The notes beneath the pieces were generated by a model that did no database searches, was not told the origin of the DNA, and was given only the letters and a program-made list of their open reading frames with translations. The position numbers and the translations under genes were made by a program. Positions 27,601 through 63,231 of a DNA stretch of 64,000 bases are shown piece after piece (position 1 is the stretch's first letter; each line of letters opens with the position of its first letter). Source of the stretch: Alphaproteobacteria bacterium (GTDB taxonomy: Bacteria > Pseudomonadota > Alphaproteobacteria > Rhizobiales > Beijerinckiaceae); NCBI GenBank assembly GCA_016869595.1, contig VGDT01000001.1, positions 124,001 to 188,000 of the forward strand, in the 5' to 3' direction.

Positions 27601-27705
27601 GGGCCGGGAGGTTGGCGGTGGACGCTTCACTCGCCAACCGGGTCAGGTCCGGAAGGAAGCAGCCCTAACGAGCTTGGGCGGGTCTTCGTTCAGCCTCCCA
27701 CCTTC
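27601..27705 (+). ncRNA. ffs: Signal recognition particle RNA (4.5S-type)
   Basis: It contains the near-universal apical domain GGTCAGGTCCGGAAGGAAGCAGCC (27640-27663, first 20 bases GGTCAGGTCCGGAAGGAAGC), which binds Ffh. GGGAGG (27606-27611) pairs with CCTCCC (27694-27699) to close the hairpin. The size, about 100 nt, is that of the small bacterial SRP RNA without an Alu domain. The exact ends are estimated from pairing. Confidence 0.93.
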
Positions 27706-34659: not shown

Positions 34660-36402
34660 TTACTCCTCGGACTTCTTGCCTTTCTTGGGCGTCTCGTCGC
34701 GGGCCTTTAGCGCCGCACCGAGAATGTCGCCAAGCGAAGCGCCGGAGTCGGCCGAGCCATATTGCGCAATGGCCTCCTTCTCCTCGGCGACTTCGAGCGC
34801 CTTGATCGAGACAGAGATCTTGCGCGCCTTGCGGTCGAAGAGCGTCACGCGGGCGTCGACCTTCTCGCCGACGGCGAACCGATCGGGACGCTGGTCGGCG
34901 CGGTCGCGAGCGAGTTCGCTGCGCTTGATGAAGGTCGTAAGATCGGTGCCGGCGATCTTCACGTCGATGCCGGAGTCCTTCACCTCAATCACTTCGCAGG
35001 TGACGACGGCGCCTTTCTTGATCTCGCCGCCTTCCTCGGCGCTCACGGAAGCGAAGGGATCGCCCGCAAGCTGCTTGACGCCAAGCGAAATGCGCTCCTT
35101 CTCCACGTCGACGTCAAGGACCTGGGCGTTGATGATGTCGCCCTTCTTATATTCCTCGATCACCTGTTCGCCGGGGCGATTCCAGTCGAGATCCGACAGA
35201 TGGACCATGCCATCGACATCGCCGTCGAGGCCAATGAAAAGACCGAATTCGGTCTTGTTCTTGACTTCGCCGGAAACGGTCGAGCCGACCGGATGTTTCT
35301 CGGCGAATCCCTCCCACGGATTCTGCAGGCACTGCTTGAGGCCGAGCGAGATGCGGCGCTTGACCGGATCGACTTCGAGCACCTGAACGTCGACCTCCTG
35401 GCTCGTCGAGACGATCTTGCCGGGATGAACGTTCTTTTTCGTCCAGCTCATTTCCGAGACGTGGACGAGTCCTTCGATGCCAGGCTCCAGTTCGACGAAG
35501 GCGCCGTAGTCGGTGATGTTGGTCACGCGGCCATGGAACTTCGCGCCGATCGGATATTTCGCCTCGATGCCCTGCCACGGGTCTTCGAGAAGCTGCTTCA
35601 TGCCAAGCGAGATGCGGTGCGTCTCGTGATTGATCTTGATGATCTTTACTTTGACGGTCTGGCCGATGGTCAACACCTCGGACGGGTGATTGACACGCCG
35701 CCAGGCGATGTCGGTGACATGCAGCAGGCCGTCGATGCCGCCGAGATCCACGAAAGCGCCGTAGTCGGTGATGTTCTTCACGACGCCGTCGATGACCTGC
35801 CCCTCTTCGAGATTGGCGACGATCTCGTGACGCTGCTCGGCGCGGCTCTCCTCGAGCACAGTGCGGCGAGACACGACGATGTTGCCGCGGCGGCGGTCCA
35901 TCTTCAGGATGTGGAAAGGCTGCGGCACATTCATCAGCGGGCCGACGTCGCGGATCGGTCGGATATCGACCTGGCTGCGCGGCAGGAAGGCCACGGCGCC
36001 GTCGAGGTCGACCGTAAATCCGCCCTTGACCTGGTTGAAGATCACCCCATCGACCTTTTCATTGGTCTCGAAGGCTTTTTCGAGCTTCACCCAGCTCTCT
36101 TCGCGGCGAGCCTTGTCGCGCGAAATGACGGCTTCGCCGAGCGCGTTCTCGACTCGCTCCAGATAGACTTCGACCTCTTCGCCGACCTGCGGGGCGGGGT
36201 CTCGGCCATAGCCGGTGAATTCCTTTATAGCGACTCGACCCTCGGTCTTGAGGCCGATGTCGATGACGGCGACATCCTTTTCGATGGCGACGACGCGGCC
36301 CTTAATAACGGAACCTTCGAAGGCTTCGTTCTGGCCGTAGCTTTCGTCGAGCAGAGCGGCGAAATCTTCGCGCGTGGGCGCGCGATCGGTAGTGACGGAC
36401 AT
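34660..36402 (-). CDS. rpsA: 30S ribosomal protein S1
   Basis: A 580-residue protein made of six S1/OB-fold repeats. The second is divergent; later ones start with patterns such as GQVIDGVVKNITDYGAFVDLG and GAKFHGRVTNITDYGAFVELE. It brings mRNA to the 30S subunit. The ATG at 36402 follows an AGGAGAA site. The seven-residue in-frame extension upstream is rejected. Strong codon bias and its own terminator fit a highly expressed gene. The usual upstream partner cmk is not adjacent. Confidence 0.98.
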   Translation of the reverse strand: MSVTTDRAPTREDFAALLDESYGQNEAFEGSVIKGRVVAIEKDVAVIDIGLKTEGRVAIKEFTGYGRDPAPQVGEEVEVYLERVENALGEAVISRDKARREESWVKLEKAFETNEKVDGVIFNQVKGGFTVDLDGAVAFLPRSQVDIRPIRDVGPLMNVPQPFHILKMDRRRGNIVVSRRTVLEESRAEQRHEIVANLEEGQVIDGVVKNITDYGAFVDLGGIDGLLHVTDIAWRRVNHPSEVLTIGQTVKVKIIKINHETHRISLGMKQLLEDPWQGIEAKYPIGAKFHGRVTNITDYGAFVELEPGIEGLVHVSEMSWTKKNVHPGKIVSTSQEVDVQVLEVDPVKRRISLGLKQCLQNPWEGFAEKHPVGSTVSGEVKNKTEFGLFIGLDGDVDGMVHLSDLDWNRPGEQVIEEYKKGDIINAQVLDVDVEKERISLGVKQLAGDPFASVSAEEGGEIKKGAVVTCEVIEVKDSGIDVKIAGTDLTTFIKRSELARDRADQRPDRFAVGEKVDARVTLFDRKARKISVSIKALEVAEEKEAIAQYGSADSGASLGDILGAALKARDETPKKGKKSEE

Positions 36403-37016
36403 TTGTTCTCCTGAGGGCCCCATAGGGCGGCGCCGGCAATTGGTTAGCGTTGCGGATCGGCTTTCGGCGATCGGACGTCCCCCGCGGCTAGAACGCGAGG
36501 CTGGACGAAAAGTTCGCTTTAAGCGAACTGCCGGCGCGGCCCGATGTCGAAAACCAAAGCGAATGCGCCGGCTTGGTCTCCGGCGCGGCGCTTATCTATC
36601 AGCGACGCGCCGCAGCCGCAAGCGCGTCGACGTGAAAAGCATCTGATAGGCGCTTCGGCAAAGTTCTGATTTTGCGCTGCAATATCGAAATAATATACTG
36701 ATTGTATGTATTAAACATAATGCCCAAGCGTAAGATATTCGCCAATTTACTGCTGGCGGAATCGAAATCGCGCGCATAGTCTGCCAAATTGCCAAGCTTC
36801 GAAGCGTTCTCGCGTTCGCATAGGGCGAAGTCACGGAGATGGGACGAAGGCGAGTTTGCCGTTTGCCTTGGCGCCGTCTGGCAGGACGGAAACAAGCGTC
36901 AGCCGACCAGTTGGGACAAAGTCCCGAGGGCGCTAAGTAGAAGCTAGCACGCGCCGCGCGAGCGGCGAGAGCGTCGCCTTCCCTTCGTTGCGAGGGGGAT
37001 ATAAGAGGAGAAAGAA
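36403..37016. other. Long intergenic region with an AT-rich patch
   Basis: About 610 bases separate rpsA from the Cys-rich precursor gene. The part next to rpsA should hold its promoter. Bases about 36650-36770 are strikingly AT-rich (for example AATAATATACTGATTGTATG) compared with the rest of the window. ORFs here are short with unlikely composition and are not called. The last bases contain AGGAGAAAG, the ribosome-binding site of the precursor gene. No terminator or known RNA was recognised. Confidence 0.6.
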
Positions 37017-37247
37017 ATGAAGCCTAATATTATTTCAGGATCGGCTCTCGCCGCGGCGGCCGTCGCCCTTGCGTTGAGCGGCGCGTCCGTTGCGCCCGCA
37101 CACGCGCACGGCGCGAAGGCGACCCACGCCAAGACCCATTGCGGCGGCAAGGGCACCTGCCGCGGCATGGCCAAATGCCATCACAAGGCGCAGTGTCACC
37201 ACTATAAGGGCCACTGCAATATGAAAAGCCGCTGCCACACCAAGTAA
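37017..37247 (+). CDS. Secreted Cys/His-rich peptide, probable RiPP precursor of a DUF692 (MNIO) enzyme
   Basis: A 76-residue protein with a classical signal peptide (residues 1-30, cleavage after APAHA) and a short basic mature part rich in His, Lys and Cys. The six cysteines at residues 42, 48, 54, 60, 67 and 73 are spaced by 6, 6, 6, 7 and 6. Directly downstream are a DUF692 enzyme and a DUF2063 protein. Known loci of this layout (bufferins, oxazolin-type HvfA) encode secreted copper-binding peptides whose cysteines are oxidatively modified. The cysteine pattern does not match the four-Cys DUF2282 bufferins that I know of, nor EGKCG repeats. The role as precursor is inference from context. 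Confidence 0.8.
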   Translation: MKPNIISGSALAAAAVALALSGASVAPAHAHGAKATHAKTHCGGKGTCRGMAKCHHKAQCHHYKGHCNMKSRCHTK

Positions 37248-37329
37248 TCGCCTTGCGCGGGGGCGGTTCATCTTGGCCGTCCCCGTCATCGGCTCTTGGA
37301 TGAGCGGCGGCGCCTGAGGGGGAGATGTC

Positions 37330-38175
37330 ATGGAAAAGCCTGCGCCTCTCGGCTACGGCTTAGGACTGAGGCCCGTCTATTACGACGAGATTCTCTCGTC
37401 GCGCCCGCCGGTCGACTGGTTCGAAATCATCTCTGAAAATTACATGCTCGCCGGCGGCAAGCCTTTGGCCATGCTCGACCGCATCCGGGCTGATTATCCA
37501 GTCGTCATGCATGGCGTCTCTATGTCGCTGGCCTCAACCGATCCGCTCAACTTCGATTATCTGCGGCAGTTGCAAGCGCTCGCCGAACGCGTCCAGCCGG
37601 CCTGGATTTCGGATCACGTCGCCTGGACAGGCGTTCACGGCGTGACGCTTCACGATCTGTTGCCCATTCCCTATACGCGCGAGTCTCTTGCGCATATCGT
37701 CGAGCGCATCCTGCGGGTGCAGGATTTCCTCAAGCGCCGGCTCGTCGTCGAAAACGCTTCGACTTACGTCTCCTTCGTCGATTCCGAGATGAGCGAGCAT
37801 GAGTTCGTCCGCGAAATGGCGGAGCGCGCCGATTGCCTGTTGCTGCTCGACGTCAATAATGTTTTCGTTTCGAGCTTCAATCACGGCTTCGATCCGATCG
37901 CTTTCATCGACGGCGTTCCGGCCGAGCGAGTCGTGCAGTTCCATATGGCGGGCCATACCAATAACGAGACGCATCGGGTCGACACGCATGACCAGCCGGT
38001 CTGCGACGAAGTCTGGGCGCTCTATGAGCACGCCCGGCGACGCTGCGGCGACGTCTCCGCCATGATCGAGCGGGACGACAATTATCCGCCGCTCTCCGAG
38101 CTTCTGGACGAGCTGCAACATATGCGCGACATCGATGCGCGCATCGCAAACGAGCGAGCGCTCAGCGCGGCATGA
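37330..38175 (+). CDS. DUF692 multinuclear non-heme iron oxidative enzyme (BufB/HvfB/MbnB-type)
   Basis: A 281-residue TIM-barrel enzyme of the DUF692 (MNIO) family. These enzymes use two or three irons to modify cysteines in peptides, for example to oxazolone/thioamide or thiooxazole groups. Likely metal ligands are visible: His in VMHGVS, Glu in ISEN, Asp/His in ISDHVAW, Glu in VVENAS, Asp in LLDVNN, the histidines in QFHMAGH, Asp in VDTHDQPV and Glu in MIERDD. It lies 82 bases after the precursor gene and overlaps the DUF2063 gene by 4 bases, so the operon is clear. Confidence 0.93.
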   Translation: MEKPAPLGYGLGLRPVYYDEILSSRPPVDWFEIISENYMLAGGKPLAMLDRIRADYPVVMHGVSMSLASTDPLNFDYLRQLQALAERVQPAWISDHVAWTGVHGVTLHDLLPIPYTRESLAHIVERILRVQDFLKRRLVVENASTYVSFVDSEMSEHEFVREMAERADCLLLLDVNNVFVSSFNHGFDPIAFIDGVPAERVVQFHMAGHTNNETHRVDTHDQPVCDEVWALYEHARRRCGDVSAMIERDDNYPPLSELLDELQHMRDIDARIANERALSAA

Positions 38176-39008
38176 AGCTCGCCGATTTCCAGTCTCTTTT
38201 TCAGGAGCGCGTGCTGGCCGGCTCAGGAGAGGCGGACAAGCCGCTCCTGAAAAAATTGAGATTGTCGCCGCGTGGCGCAACTCCTGAGACGCTGCTCGAT
38301 GTCTATCAGACCGGCTACCGAATACGATTAGCCGATTTCGTTTCCCAGGATCACCCGGGGCTGCGCGCGATTCTCGGAGACGAGACTTTTGAGACGCTGG
38401 TCGACGACTACATCGATTGGCGTCCGTCGTGCGAGCCCAACGCGCGCTTTTTTACGACCCGACTGCCGGATTTCATGCGCGAAAATTCGCCCTGGCGCGA
38501 CGACGCGCGGGCGGTCTCATTGGCGCTGTTCGAACGCGCCATGGTCGACGCCTTCGATGCGCCTGACAAAACCCCATTGGCCGTGCAGGCGCTGGCGGAT
38601 TTTACGCCCGAGGATTGGCCTCGCCTCGCCTTCGATTTTGACCCAAGTCTAACGCTGCTCGAACTCGCCGCCGGCACAGTCCGCGCTTATGACGCGGCCA
38701 TCAATGAGGAGGAGGCGGAGAAAGTCGATGCGCCTACGGCAGGCGATCAGGTCGAATATGCGGCAGTGTGGCGCGTCGATCACGAATCGGCCTACCGCCA
38801 GCTCGAGCCCGACGAATATGTCGCGCTCTGCGAAGCGCGCGCGGGCCACGCCTTCGGCGATATCTGCCAAATTACGGCGTTCCAGCAGTCCGGCGAGATT
38901 ACGCCGGAACGTTTGGCGCAATGCCTATCGAGCTGGTTCGAGGACGGTATGATTATCGGCGTGCGCGTGCGCGACGATCATTCTTCGAACACGCCTTCAA
39001 GCGCGTAA
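38172..39008 (+). CDS. DUF2063 MNIO partner protein (BufC/HvfC-type)
   Basis: A 278-residue protein with an N-terminal DUF2063 putative DNA-binding-like domain (start MKLADFQSLFQERVL, then LDVYQTGYRIRLADFV) and a C-terminal winged-helix-like region (ALCEARAGHAFGDICQI). In characterised MNIO pathways the partner recognises the leader or signal region of the precursor and presents it to the iron enzyme. The start overlaps the DUF692 stop (ATGA). The 3' end overlaps the convergent fae-like gene by 31 bases. Confidence 0.9.
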   Translation: MKLADFQSLFQERVLAGSGEADKPLLKKLRLSPRGATPETLLDVYQTGYRIRLADFVSQDHPGLRAILGDETFETLVDDYIDWRPSCEPNARFFTTRLPDFMRENSPWRDDARAVSLALFERAMVDAFDAPDKTPLAVQALADFTPEDWPRLAFDFDPSLTLLELAAGTVRAYDAAINEEEAEKVDAPTAGDQVEYAAVWRVDHESAYRQLEPDEYVALCEARAGHAFGDICQITAFQQSGEITPERLAQCLSSWFEDGMIIGVRVRDDHSSNTPSSA

Positions 39009-39520
39009 TGCTGCACGCTCTTGCGGTTGGCGATGAGTTCGTCCGCCGTCGGCTCGCCCTTCATCGCGCGTGAGATCGCGAGCTTCGTCGCTTCGTAATT
39101 CGTGCGATAGAGATCTTTCTTGTCGAGCTTCTTGTGCTTGGCGCAACGCGGATCGAGCCAGACCATGATGACCATGCACAGCTCATTGATCTGATCTTTG
39201 GGGATAATCCCTTCAGCGATACAGTCGACGATGGCGTCGCCTGTCGCCGCCTGCACGACGCCGCCCAGTAGCTCGACATATTCTTCCGATTTGACCGTCA
39301 TCTTGGTGGTCATCATCGTCGCGGGTCGCACCTGCTGGTTGAGGTCGCGGATGACGAACATGCGCGGATGGCCGGCGACCTGACCCGCCATGCTGGCGAA
39401 GGCGTGCCCGACCGGACCCTTGACGTTGCCGATCATCACTTCCGGCATCGCGTCGGTATATTGTCCGTCCGCCGCCAGAACCGTCGCTTCGCCCGTCGCC
39501 AACCAGATATGCTCGGTCAT
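38978..39520 (-). CDS. Formaldehyde-activating enzyme (Fae) paralogue, proposed catalytic His replaced
   Basis: A 180-residue protein clearly of the Fae fold. IAEGIIPKDQINEL, then TNYEATKLAISRAMKGEPT and the RKSVQH ending match Fae, which condenses formaldehyde with tetrahydromethanopterin in methylotrophs. The position of the conserved histidine just before the IDLIIG-type strand is Met25 here (DAMPEVMIG), so normal catalysis is doubtful. Compared with true Fae it has an insertion with CAKHKKLDKKD. It may be a Fae2/Fae3-like regulator or carrier. The ATG at 39520 is best placed relative to AAAGGA; two more ATGs lie immediately upstream. Confidence 0.9.
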   Translation of the reverse strand: MTEHIWLATGEATVLAADGQYTDAMPEVMIGNVKGPVGHAFASMAGQVAGHPRMFVIRDLNQQVRPATMMTTKMTVKSEEYVELLGGVVQAATGDAIVDCIAEGIIPKDQINELCMVIMVWLDPRCAKHKKLDKKDLYRTNYEATKLAISRAMKGEPTADELIANRKSVQHYALEGVFEE

Positions 39521-39762
39521 CATCATTCCTTTTCTCAATGAGTTGAGCGCTCGATAGCACCGCGCGTTGTCATATGGAAGCGGACGATCGGAGCGCTTCT
39601 GTCGCCTTTTCCTCCATGCTTCGATCGATGCAAGACCTACGCTCTCGATGCTCGCTCCGCCGCCTTTGCAAATCCTCTGGCGAAGCGGTTCAATCCGAAT
39701 GGATTCTTTATGCCGCATTGGCGCAAGTTGGATCAAAGTCCTCTTGGAGGCCGAGTGGGGAC

Positions 39763-62845: not shown

Positions 62846-63228
<383 letters not shown>

Positions 63229-63231
<3 letters not shown>

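Follow-up and report, generated by a model that had tools for sequence, protein, structure and literature searches.

A locus of three genes, encoding a small Cys/His-rich peptide, an MNIO (DUF692) enzyme and a DUF2063 partner, raises the question of whether its product is a new class of modified peptide, as the first-pass annotation of this DNA had suggested, or belongs to one of the known MNIO systems. Positions refer to the window, i.e. the whole stretch of 64,000 nucleotides that was analysed. Probably, the locus is a bufferin-2 variant of Methylocystis, in which leader and enzyme were kept and the core was replaced by a short Cys/His-rich one, with a thiooxazole-containing copper-binding product.

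Layout of the locus and its host

The three open reading frames (Table 1) are all on the forward strand. The gap between the precursor gene and bufB is 82 bases, and the ORFs of bufB and bufC overlap by 4 bases (38172–38175), so the co-directional layout described first for this DNA is confirmed. No DoxX gene lies beside the locus, the flanks being rpsA and fae; DoxX is frequent in bufferin operons and is not obligatory.

Table 1. Features of the locus and its flanks in the window.
Feature	Position	Strand	Description
Precursor gene (bufA-like)	37017..37247	+	ORF of 76 aa, predicted Sec-type leader (aa 1–30) and Cys/His-rich core
Leader / signal peptide (aa 1–30)	37017..37106	+	Related to the canonical BufA2 leader of the same genome
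Six-Cys core region (Cys within aa 42–73)	37137..37244	+	After-Cys residues G, R, H, H, N, H
MNIO / DUF692 enzyme (bufB, bufferin maturase)	37330..38175	+	281 aa; NF050167, PF05114, 3BWW match
DUF2063 partner (bufC, PME-type 1), C-terminal RRE-like domain	38172..39008	+	278 aa; PF09836, AF2 model, Foldseek
rpsA flank (ribosomal protein S1), divergent	34660..36423	-	Slot marker, outside the system
fae flank (formaldehyde-activating enzyme homologue), convergent	38978..39736	-	PF08714 (186 bits) and synteny; slot marker, outside the system

The host, which had been considered as a possible methanotroph, proved to be one: its genome encodes pMMO-B, and 12 of the 16 named relatives with the peptide patterns of the locus are titled Methylocystis. 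The scan of named genomes used two short peptide patterns and recovered just 16 of the 28 replaced-core genomes, and therefore it does not prove absence elsewhere. A separate MbnB gene (450 bits) is located on contig C33 of the host genome, as well as a DUF2282 precursor (86 bits) with its own MNIO at another locus (L038).

The sigma-70-like scan of positions 36400–39100 revealed no forward-strand site upstream of the operon, for which reason a copper-responsive promoter was dropped. Neither a promoter nor a copper box links the locus to copper, which is a point against the copper reading. No Rfam family was found at the operon. The palindrome TTGC-N3-GCAA is present 248–345 bases upstream in 13/14 His-rich loci, versus 0/9 sister-group and 0/28 canonical loci (2/9 and 3/28, respectively, with 1- or 2-base spacing). 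Being sited between rpsA and the operon, it may belong to rpsA.

The enzyme and its partner

The enzyme passes the cut-off of the NCBIfam BufB model (NF050167, 373.5 bits, cut-off 310) and matches PF05114 (365 bits, cut-off 25) as well as 3BWW (158.8 bits). It stays below the cut-offs of HvfB (271.8 bits, cut-off 360), MbnB (76.4 bits, cut-off 325), ApyH and ChrH. Residues H61, H96, E141, D174, N177, H205, D218 and H220 are identical in every row with a residue there in the alignment of 63 MNIOs, and E247 and D249 are conserved in 98% of the rows. All ten of these conserved positions, which are candidate ligand or catalytic ones, are kept in the enzyme, in agreement with its description as a DUF692 iron enzyme with recognisable metal ligands. 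The assignment of ligands and catalytic Asp follows in part PMC13097082.

The site next to the catalytic Asp, which corresponds to the selectivity residue Phe250 of FonB, is occupied by D250 (ERDDNY versus ERDFNF in 3BWW). Asp is found here in 27/27 enzymes of the replaced-core loci and in 21/22 canonical Buf2 rows, with Glu in the remaining one; all ten Buf1 rows have Asn or Ser, the Buf1 label being Pfam-checked in three of them (all DUF2282) and given by likeness in the others. In PMC13097082, Asp at this site is assigned to Cys-Lys enzymes. As reported in the same paper, FonBC, an enzyme pair of the Lys-Cys type, did not process cores in which Cys precedes a charged residue, so it is possible that CR or CH sites stay unmodified.

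In the MNIO tree (63 rows with identical sequences dropped, drawn with a midpoint root and read with the root outside), the 27 distinct replaced-core enzymes form one group (100/100). This group joins (97/96) four Methylocystis enzymes adjoining canonical BufA2, and the Buf1-associated enzymes branch apart; the precursor types were assigned manually, leaving four rows without an assigned precursor.

The product of the third gene matches PF09836 (DUF2063) at residues 6–102 (51.4 bits, cut-off 27.2), in line with its annotation as a DUF2063 partner. The AF2 model of the partner (pLDDT 84.6, pTM 0.81) was matched by Foldseek to TglI (8hi7, 5.2e-6) and NGO1945 (3dee, 1.9e-5) and, weakly, to lasso-peptide leader-binding proteins (E 0.85–1.7). 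DUF2063 is followed by an RRE-type domain, as in PME-type 1 proteins.

The precursor peptide

The N-terminus of the precursor, read by eye from the sequence, shows an n-region with lysine, followed by a hydrophobic segment and a cleavage-like A28-H-A30 motif. The next 46 residues contain 6 Cys and 9 His, and the precursor may be described, as it was at first, as a signal-peptide-bearing Cys/His-rich one with Sec-type leader features. Its core reads HC-GGKGT-C-RGMAK-C-HHKAQ-C-HHYKGH-C-NMKSR-C-HTK. The structure model of the precursor is of low confidence (pLDDT 50.8, pTM 0.17), and hence no fold is claimed.

In accordance with the earlier remark that it seems unlike known families, the precursor passes the cut-off of no described one. 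On the BufA2 model (NF050166) it obtains 22.4 bits at a cut-off of 60, and its relatives obtain 10.5–21.5 bits or no match. Two of the three DUF2282 (Buf1) precursors reach the same level (19.8 and 22.5 bits), so this weak score does not support Buf2 over Buf1 and was dropped as evidence. The profile of canonical BufA2 recovers the precursor at E 1.3e-9, with no Buf1 precursor among its matches at E ≤ 1e-8. No PF10048 (DUF2282, Buf1) match was found among the Pfam matches with E up to 10, and no metallothionein or copper storage family among the Pfam and NCBIfam matches. The EGKCG repeat is absent on reading. The CxxxxC motifs of the family in PMC12452194 are absent as well, the Cys residues of the precursor being 5 or 6 residues apart (judged by the motif alone).

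All 22 full-length homologues of at least 73% identity (101 genomes, own copy counted) have an orthologous MNIO gene 62–93 bases downstream, stop codon included, which excludes a chance ORF. It had been stated beforehand that an MNIO-modified peptide would be called into question if its homologues were routinely found away from MNIO genes; such cases amount to 0/22. Purifying selection acts on the mature part, with dN/dS of 0.17 (14 sequences; 90 of 91 pairs, those with dS > 0.05). In the alignment of 22 rows, five 9-Cys relatives among them, none of the 6 Cys varies, and 5 of the 7 His located from the first Cys region onwards are likewise invariant.

The core differs from that of canonical BufA2 in several respects (counts are for distinct sequences: 28 canonical, 15 six-Cys and 5 nine-Cys). 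Cys is followed by Lys in 0/90 cases in the 6-Cys peptides versus 103/168 in canonical BufA2. The stretch that starts one residue ahead of the first Cys contains 7–10 His versus 0–2, and its length is 36 residues versus 49–57. The C-terminal W...C...GG block of canonical BufA2 is lost. The 9-Cys and 8-Cys cores retain one to three Cys-Lys, and it is therefore possible that the kept Asp of the enzyme simply serves those or the stand-alone BufA2.

Kinship of the leader and origin of the core

The leader (aa 1–31), compared with the whole own genome, matches itself (8.5e-13) and the BufA2 on contig C60 (3.2e-4, 59% identity). There are no other matches at E ≤ 10, and Buf1 of this genome was not recovered. 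The mature parts were compared profile to profile. For the 6-Cys mature part, Cys-preserving column shuffles are as good in 42/100 cases against all canonical BufA2 and in 21/100 against the slot-like ones; for the 9-Cys part the corresponding values are 14/100 and 3/100. Full shuffles are as good in 3 and 2 of 100 cases (6-Cys) and in 0 and 0 of 100 (9-Cys) against the same sets. As the 6-Cys mature part does not align better than Cys-preserving shuffles, homology of the core to canonical BufA2 is not claimed and its descent from BufA2 is unproven. Alternatively, an old leader could have acquired a new core, or the core could be derived from the 2-Cys tandem gene.

The chromosomal slot in Methylocystis

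In four Methylocystis genomes the slot holds a canonical Cys-Lys BufA2 (85–91 bits on the BufA2 model, above the cut-off) beside the sister enzyme. Of these loci, L084 is flanked by rpsA and fae, L083 by rpsA, and L082 and L085 by fae. Other cores occupy the slot in 28 genomes, 22 of them with the 6-Cys His-rich core and 6 with only 9-, 8- or 5-Cys ones. At the thresholds used, the slot MNIO and canonical BufA2 are both present in the same 32 of the 39 genus genomes, and neither in the other 7. The slot enzyme is absent at E ≤ 1e-60 from G003 and G008, genus genomes listed as 98–99% complete, which has to be counted as a point against. The related leader, the enzyme tree and the synteny make the locus a lineage-specific derivative of bufferin-2 loci, for which "new class" is too strong a term.

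The replaced-core BufB is the sole bufferin-2-type MNIO found in 20/28 genomes (rows of at least 287 bits, search listed at E ≤ 1e-60), and in each of these there is a canonical BufA2 gene, or several, with no adjoining enzyme of that type. Since the leader is shared and BufB is often alone of its type in a genome, canonical Cys-Lys BufA2 encoded elsewhere is probably matured in trans by this BufBC pair as well. At least 7/36 stand-alone BufA2 genes have a Buf1-type MNIO nearby (see L047 and L050), a lower bound, since only MNIOs at E ≤ 1e-60 were listed and weaker Buf1-type ones may be missed.

Comparison with known systems

With bufferin-2 (BufA2/BufB2/BufC2; Buf_6/12Cys; "Cys-Lys" captophorins) the locus has in common the enzyme family, the selectivity Asp, the DUF2063 and RRE partner, the ABC gene order, a related leader, six Cys and the slot of four Methylocystis genomes; it differs by the shorter (36 versus 49–57 residues) His-rich core without Cys-Lys and W...C...GG, and by having no adjacent DoxX. 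Bufferin-1 (DUF2282, BufA1) similarly combines a signal-peptide precursor, an MNIO and a DUF2063 partner, but the present precursor has no DUF2282 and the selectivity site of Buf1 enzymes is Asn/Ser. The oxazolin/fontiphorin/gonophorin group (EGKCG, "Lys-Cys" captophorins; HvfABC, FonABC) shares the MNIO, the DUF2063 partner and an exported (here predicted) Cys-rich precursor. Membership in this group was rejected, as the repeat is absent, Asp stands in place of Phe and the HvfB cut-off is missed. Thus, of the original assignment to a bufferin/oxazolin-type MNIO RiPP locus, the bufferin part stands and the oxazolin (HvfA) part does not. Methanobactin (MbnABC) has an MNIO of the same superfamily and occurs in methanotroph hosts, this genome having an MbnB gene elsewhere; identity with it was rejected because the MbnB score is low, the leader is of the Sec type and DUF2063 replaces MbnC. 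Bacterial metallothioneins and copper storage proteins are likewise small Cys-rich metal binders, but without an MNIO, which the locus has.

No publication on a Methylocystis bufferin was found in the literature searches, in one of which the term "bufferin" was swamped by "buffering". No such locus appears in the matched text of the Methylosinus trichosporium copper transcriptome (PMC12811070) or of PMC3621798. According to PMC12452194, hundreds of unclassified signal-peptide ORFs adjoining MNIOs are given in its Table S2, where the present precursor may already be included.

Proposed maturation and function

The precursor would be made in the cytosol, where the RRE domain of BufC would bind the conserved leader (signal peptide) and present the core to the multi-iron site of BufB. 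There, the six Cys would be oxidised in part or altogether, 5-thiooxazoles being the most likely product. Export by Sec and cleavage after AHA would follow, and the mature peptide of ~46 residues would bind periplasmic copper by thiooxazole sulphur together with many neighbouring His. By analogy with the characterised relatives, it is probably a periplasmic copper buffer. Captophorins, the 5-thiooxazole peptides, are characterised by Cys-derived 5-thiooxazoles, a band at ~305 nm and binding of copper. In PMC12452194, Buf1 is reported to chelate copper via thiooxazoles, with preliminary data pointing to a mass loss and a function of a similar kind for Buf2; preliminary results also place the signal peptide of Buf1 within the recognition sequence of BufBC.

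A reading with the same MNIO chemistry but a metal other than copper, in which the extra His suit Zn, Ni or another ion, or redox or sulphur stress, is unlikely. Copper is a central metal for methanotrophs, and a host with pMMO and MbnB argues against another one, whereas the strong His enrichment (7–10 versus 0–2 in canonical BufA2) would fit it. So would the MerC fusions and gold induction reported for other bufferins in PMC12452194; the characterised 5-thiooxazole peptides are generally copper-binding, according to PMC13097082.

Rather improbable is an unmodified, metallothionein-like periplasmic metal binder, with BufBC mainly serving canonical BufA2 elsewhere. The Cys-Lys selectivity Asp kept beside a 6-Cys neighbour without Cys-Lys, and the 20/28 genomes with BufB as the sole bufferin-2-type MNIO yet canonical BufA2 elsewhere, are in favour of it. 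On the other hand, the bufferin leader is kept, the same-strand adjacency holds in 22/22 cases, and some stand-alone BufA2 lie near Buf1-type MNIOs able to serve them. A secreted methanobactin-like molecule acquiring copper instead of buffering it would agree with the MNIO fold and Cys modification common to MbnB and with the methanotroph host, but is very improbable given the MbnB score (76.4 bits, cut-off 325), the Sec-type leader, DUF2063 in place of MbnC and the separate MbnB gene on contig C33. A decaying locus with a degenerate bufferin precursor that has lost its function, to which the low BufA2 score and the lost W...C...GG block could point, is hardly credible in view of the dN/dS, the invariant six Cys and 5/7 His and the intact MNIO and partner ORFs in the loci read.

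The bufferin-2 variant thus preferred offers a natural test of how far a leader-guided enzyme tolerates core replacement: slot, enzyme clade and partner are the same in sister species, and the cores are CK, 9-, 8- and 5-Cys and His-rich 6-Cys ones. The effect of thiooxazole-adjacent His on metal choice or affinity is directly testable. Copper decides which methane monooxygenase methanotrophs use, and here one methanotroph has a probable copper-buffering peptide together with a methanobactin MbnB gene. Tentatively, one may think of a captophorin subclass in which a Cys-Lys MNIO builds thiooxazoles beside His, giving mixed thiooxazole/imidazole sites, and one BufBC serves canonical bufferins in trans too; such a peptide might act as an envelope copper buffer opposite methanobactin uptake, supplying or protecting pMMO.

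Organization of the locus and its enzymes

The three-gene layout described in the first-pass annotation was borne out, as the precursor, the MNIO (DUF692) enzyme and the DUF2063 partner are all present as ORFs of the + strand, with a four-base overlap between the latter two.

Features of the window and of related fetched loci (L-numbers, in locus coordinates)
Feature	Location	Strand	Remarks
Precursor ORF	37017-37247	+	76 aa
MNIO enzyme ORF	37330-38175	+	281 aa; PF05114, 365 bits
Partner ORF	38172-39008	+	278 aa; PF09836/DUF2063, 51.4 bits
TTGC-N3-GCAA palindrome and conserved AT-rich block	36672-36720		between rpsA and operon
Small SRP RNA (Rfam)	27606-27702		ordinary
RNase P RNA (Rfam)	62850-63229		ordinary
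Tandem slot precursors, other Methylocystis	L042 5562-6499		
Tandem slot precursors, other Methylocystis	L045 5850-6755		
Tandem slot precursors, other Methylocystis	L044 5756-6343		
Tandem slot precursors, other Methylocystis	L048 7334-7965		
MbnB with the ORF after it, own contig C33	L040 7192-8578		449.9 bits, cut-off 325
Fourth MNIO of own genome, contig C1:312956	L039 4735-5763		235.8 bits, BufB cut-off 310
Canonical BufA2 of own genome, contig C60	L041 1248-1592		stand-alone

The MNIO enzyme passes the NCBIfam model of the bufferin maturase BufB (373.5 bits, cut-off 310). It falls short of the cut-offs for HvfB (271.8 bits, cut-off 360), ApyH (97.8, 400), MbnB (76.4, 325) and ChrH (51.5, 600). 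The nearest solved structure by sequence is the DUF692 protein 3BWW (158.8 bits), followed by TglH and MbnB. In an alignment of 63 MNIO rows His61, His96, Glu141, Asp174, Asn177, His205, Asp218 and His220 are identical in every row with a residue at that position, and Glu247 and Asp249 are kept in 98%; the assignment of the conserved positions as metal ligands and of Asp249 as the catalytic Asp follows PMC13097082 and general knowledge of MNIO enzymes. PMC13097082 also reports that Lys-Cys enzymes carry Phe at the FonB-250 site and that Cys-Lys (BufB2) enzymes carry Asp, with a model placing the latter residue on the Lys of the substrate. This site is occupied by Asp in the window enzyme (ERDDNY versus ERDFNF in 3BWW), in 27/27 rows of its tree group and in 21/22 Buf2-linked rows (the remaining one has Glu); Buf1-linked rows have Asn (9/10) or Ser (1/10). 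The enzyme has thus retained the bufferin-2 setting, while its adjoining 6-Cys substrate is devoid of Cys-Lys.

Searched by itself, the partner protein has no sequence match among solved structures, and a profile of 18 relatives matches 3DEE at E 0.014 only. The predicted model (pLDDT 84.6, pTM 0.81) matches TglI (8hi7, E 5.2e-6) and NGO1945 (3dee, E 1.9e-5) and, weakly, leader-binding proteins of lasso peptides (E 0.85 to 1.7). The partner is thus a DUF2063+RRE protein, PME-type 1 in the terms of PMC12452194.

The precursor family and its kinship to bufferin-2

Among 101 genomes (relatives and own) the precursor has a match at E <= 0.01 in 34. The genus accounts for 32 of them; the other two are from different genera, and their matches are canonical (Cys-Lys) BufA2 (L029/L046, L054). 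Full-length homologues (at least 73% identity) occur in 22/101 genomes, own included, all in the genus, and in 22/22 an MNIO gene follows on the same strand 62–93 bases downstream (stop codon included). In a 22-row alignment that also holds five 9-Cys relatives, all six Cys are invariant, and of the seven His that lie in or after the first Cys region, five are invariant too. The dN/dS ratio of the mature part is 0.17 (14 sequences; the 90 of 91 pairs with dS above 0.05). No fold is predictable (model pLDDT 50.8).

On the BufA2 model the precursor reaches 22.4 bits, under the cut-off of 60, and its relatives 10.5 to 21.5 bits or no match. Since two of three tested DUF2282 (Buf1) precursors of the genus reach like scores (19.8 and 22.5 bits), this value is unspecific. 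More telling is the leader-only search: residues 1–31 against the whole own genome (six frames, E up to 10) found just the precursor itself and the C60 canonical BufA2 (E 3.2e-4, 59% identity; 101 bits on the BufA2 model), the own-genome Buf1 precursor being absent from the results. A profile built on 18 canonical BufA2 sequences of the genus and of related genera matches the window precursor over the leader and first Cys (E 1.3e-9), with no Buf1 precursor listed at E <= 1e-8. Mature parts alone were compared with canonical BufA2 against Cys-preserving column shuffles (100 each); shuffles were as good in 42/100 (all canonical) and 21/100 (slot-like canonical) for the 6-Cys part, and in 14/100 and 3/100, respectively, for the 9-Cys part. 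Hence the evidence of kinship lies in the leader and does not extend to the core. Of the proposed likeness to bufferin/oxazolin systems the bufferin part holds in kind and the oxazolin part does not.

One slot with different cores

In the tree of 63 distinct MNIO rows the 27 enzymes from loci with a replaced (non-canonical) core cluster together (100/100); joined to this group (97/96) are four enzymes of Methylocystis whose precursors are canonical BufA2 (85–91 bits). Calling the two sisters presumes a root outside, among Buf1 or other rows. Within the stretches fetched, these four loci occupy the same slot between rpsA and fae: both genes flank L084, rpsA flanks L083, and fae flanks L082 and L085. 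Both flank the operon in 13/13 fetched loci of the window's 17-row subgroup (L058-L070; flanks up to 6 kb), and in L071-L073 of the sister subgroup rpsA is kept with no fae nearby.

Of 32 slot genomes, 17 (the window's subgroup) carry the 6-Cys peptide alone, five a 2-Cys peptide followed by the 6-Cys one (two of them also a 9-Cys peptide), six a 2- or 3-Cys peptide followed by a 9-Cys (4), 8-Cys (1) or 5-Cys (1) peptide, and four a 2- or 3-Cys peptide followed by canonical BufA2. A 2- or 3-Cys peptide leads in each of the 15 slots that do not belong to the window's subgroup. The tandem arrays open with a 2-Cys peptide of the CGGKNGC type, which has a long A/P/K/D-rich tail; 9-/8-Cys and/or 6-Cys His-rich peptides come next, and a single MNIO gene follows them all.

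The residue after Cys is never Lys in 15 distinct 6-Cys peptides (90 Cys: His 49, Gly 15, Asn 15, Arg 11); it is Lys 103 times and His twice in 28 canonical BufA2 (168 Cys), and Lys 7 and His 15 times in five 9-Cys peptides (45 Cys). From one residue ahead of the first Cys onward, 6-Cys peptides have 7–10 His and canonical BufA2 0–2. The TTGC-N3-GCAA palindrome with its AT-rich block is present at this place in 13/14 His-rich loci, the window's included, and, at that spacing, in none of 9 sister-group loci; it may be the rpsA promoter region.

Host and other MNIO genes

The host is a methanotroph, its genome (3.28 Mb, 152 contigs) encoding the B subunit of particulate methane monooxygenase. 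When named species genomes were scanned by patterns drawn from the precursor alignment, 16 loci came up (12 Methylocystis, 1 Methylocystaceae, 2 Alphaproteobacteria and 1 Hyphomicrobiales metagenome bins), all falling in the window's genus. The separate MNIO on C33 is MbnB, so a methanobactin-type gene is also present; a 191-aa ORF follows it at the MbnC position. The fourth MNIO has a very long tree branch and a 192-aa ORF overlapping its end, with no precursor recognised. Near the C60 BufA2 lies a 1092-aa ORF that, by reading, resembles an RND efflux pump.

Proposed function

By analogy with characterised bufferins and captophorins (PMC12452194, PMC13097082), the steps beyond gene presence would be as follows: BufC (the partner) would bind the precursor leader, BufB (the MNIO enzyme) would oxidise Cys, most likely to 5-thiooxazoles, and the precursor would be exported by Sec and cleaved after the AHA motif, so that thiooxazoles and His could hold copper in the periplasm. 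The literature listings covered gave no prior mention for Methylocystis. The term "new class" was not adopted; until the chemistry is known, the product is best called a new variant in the bufferin-2 lineage.

The slot enzyme and canonical BufA2 were found, at the thresholds used, in the same 32/39 genomes of the genus and neither in the other seven, five of which are just 64–81% complete. Two genomes of the genus listed as 98–99% complete (G003, G008) have no slot MNIO (E <= 1e-60) and no canonical BufA2 (E <= 1e-8). In 20/28 replaced-core genomes no bufferin-2-type MNIO other than the slot enzyme was found, and all 20 still encode one or more canonical BufA2 outside the slot. Of their 36 stand-alone BufA2 genes, at least 7 may be served by a listed Buf1-type MNIO no more than 4 kb away; every one of the 20 genomes has a stand-alone BufA2 away from listed MNIOs, within the limits of contig ends and unlisted weaker MNIOs. 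The sole stand-alone canonical BufA2 of the own genome lies near the end of C60, and the like gene in the close relative G036 has a Buf1-type MNIO ~2 kb downstream of it (L050). PMC12452194 already suggests maturation in trans as a possibility for stand-alone bufferin genes, and its preliminary results indicate that the recognition sequence includes the Buf1 signal peptide. With a sole bufferin-2-type MNIO and BufA2 elsewhere, and given these limits on neighbours, it is plausible that the window's BufBC matures stand-alone BufA2 in trans, and the slot enzyme may have been retained for work on canonical BufA2 elsewhere.
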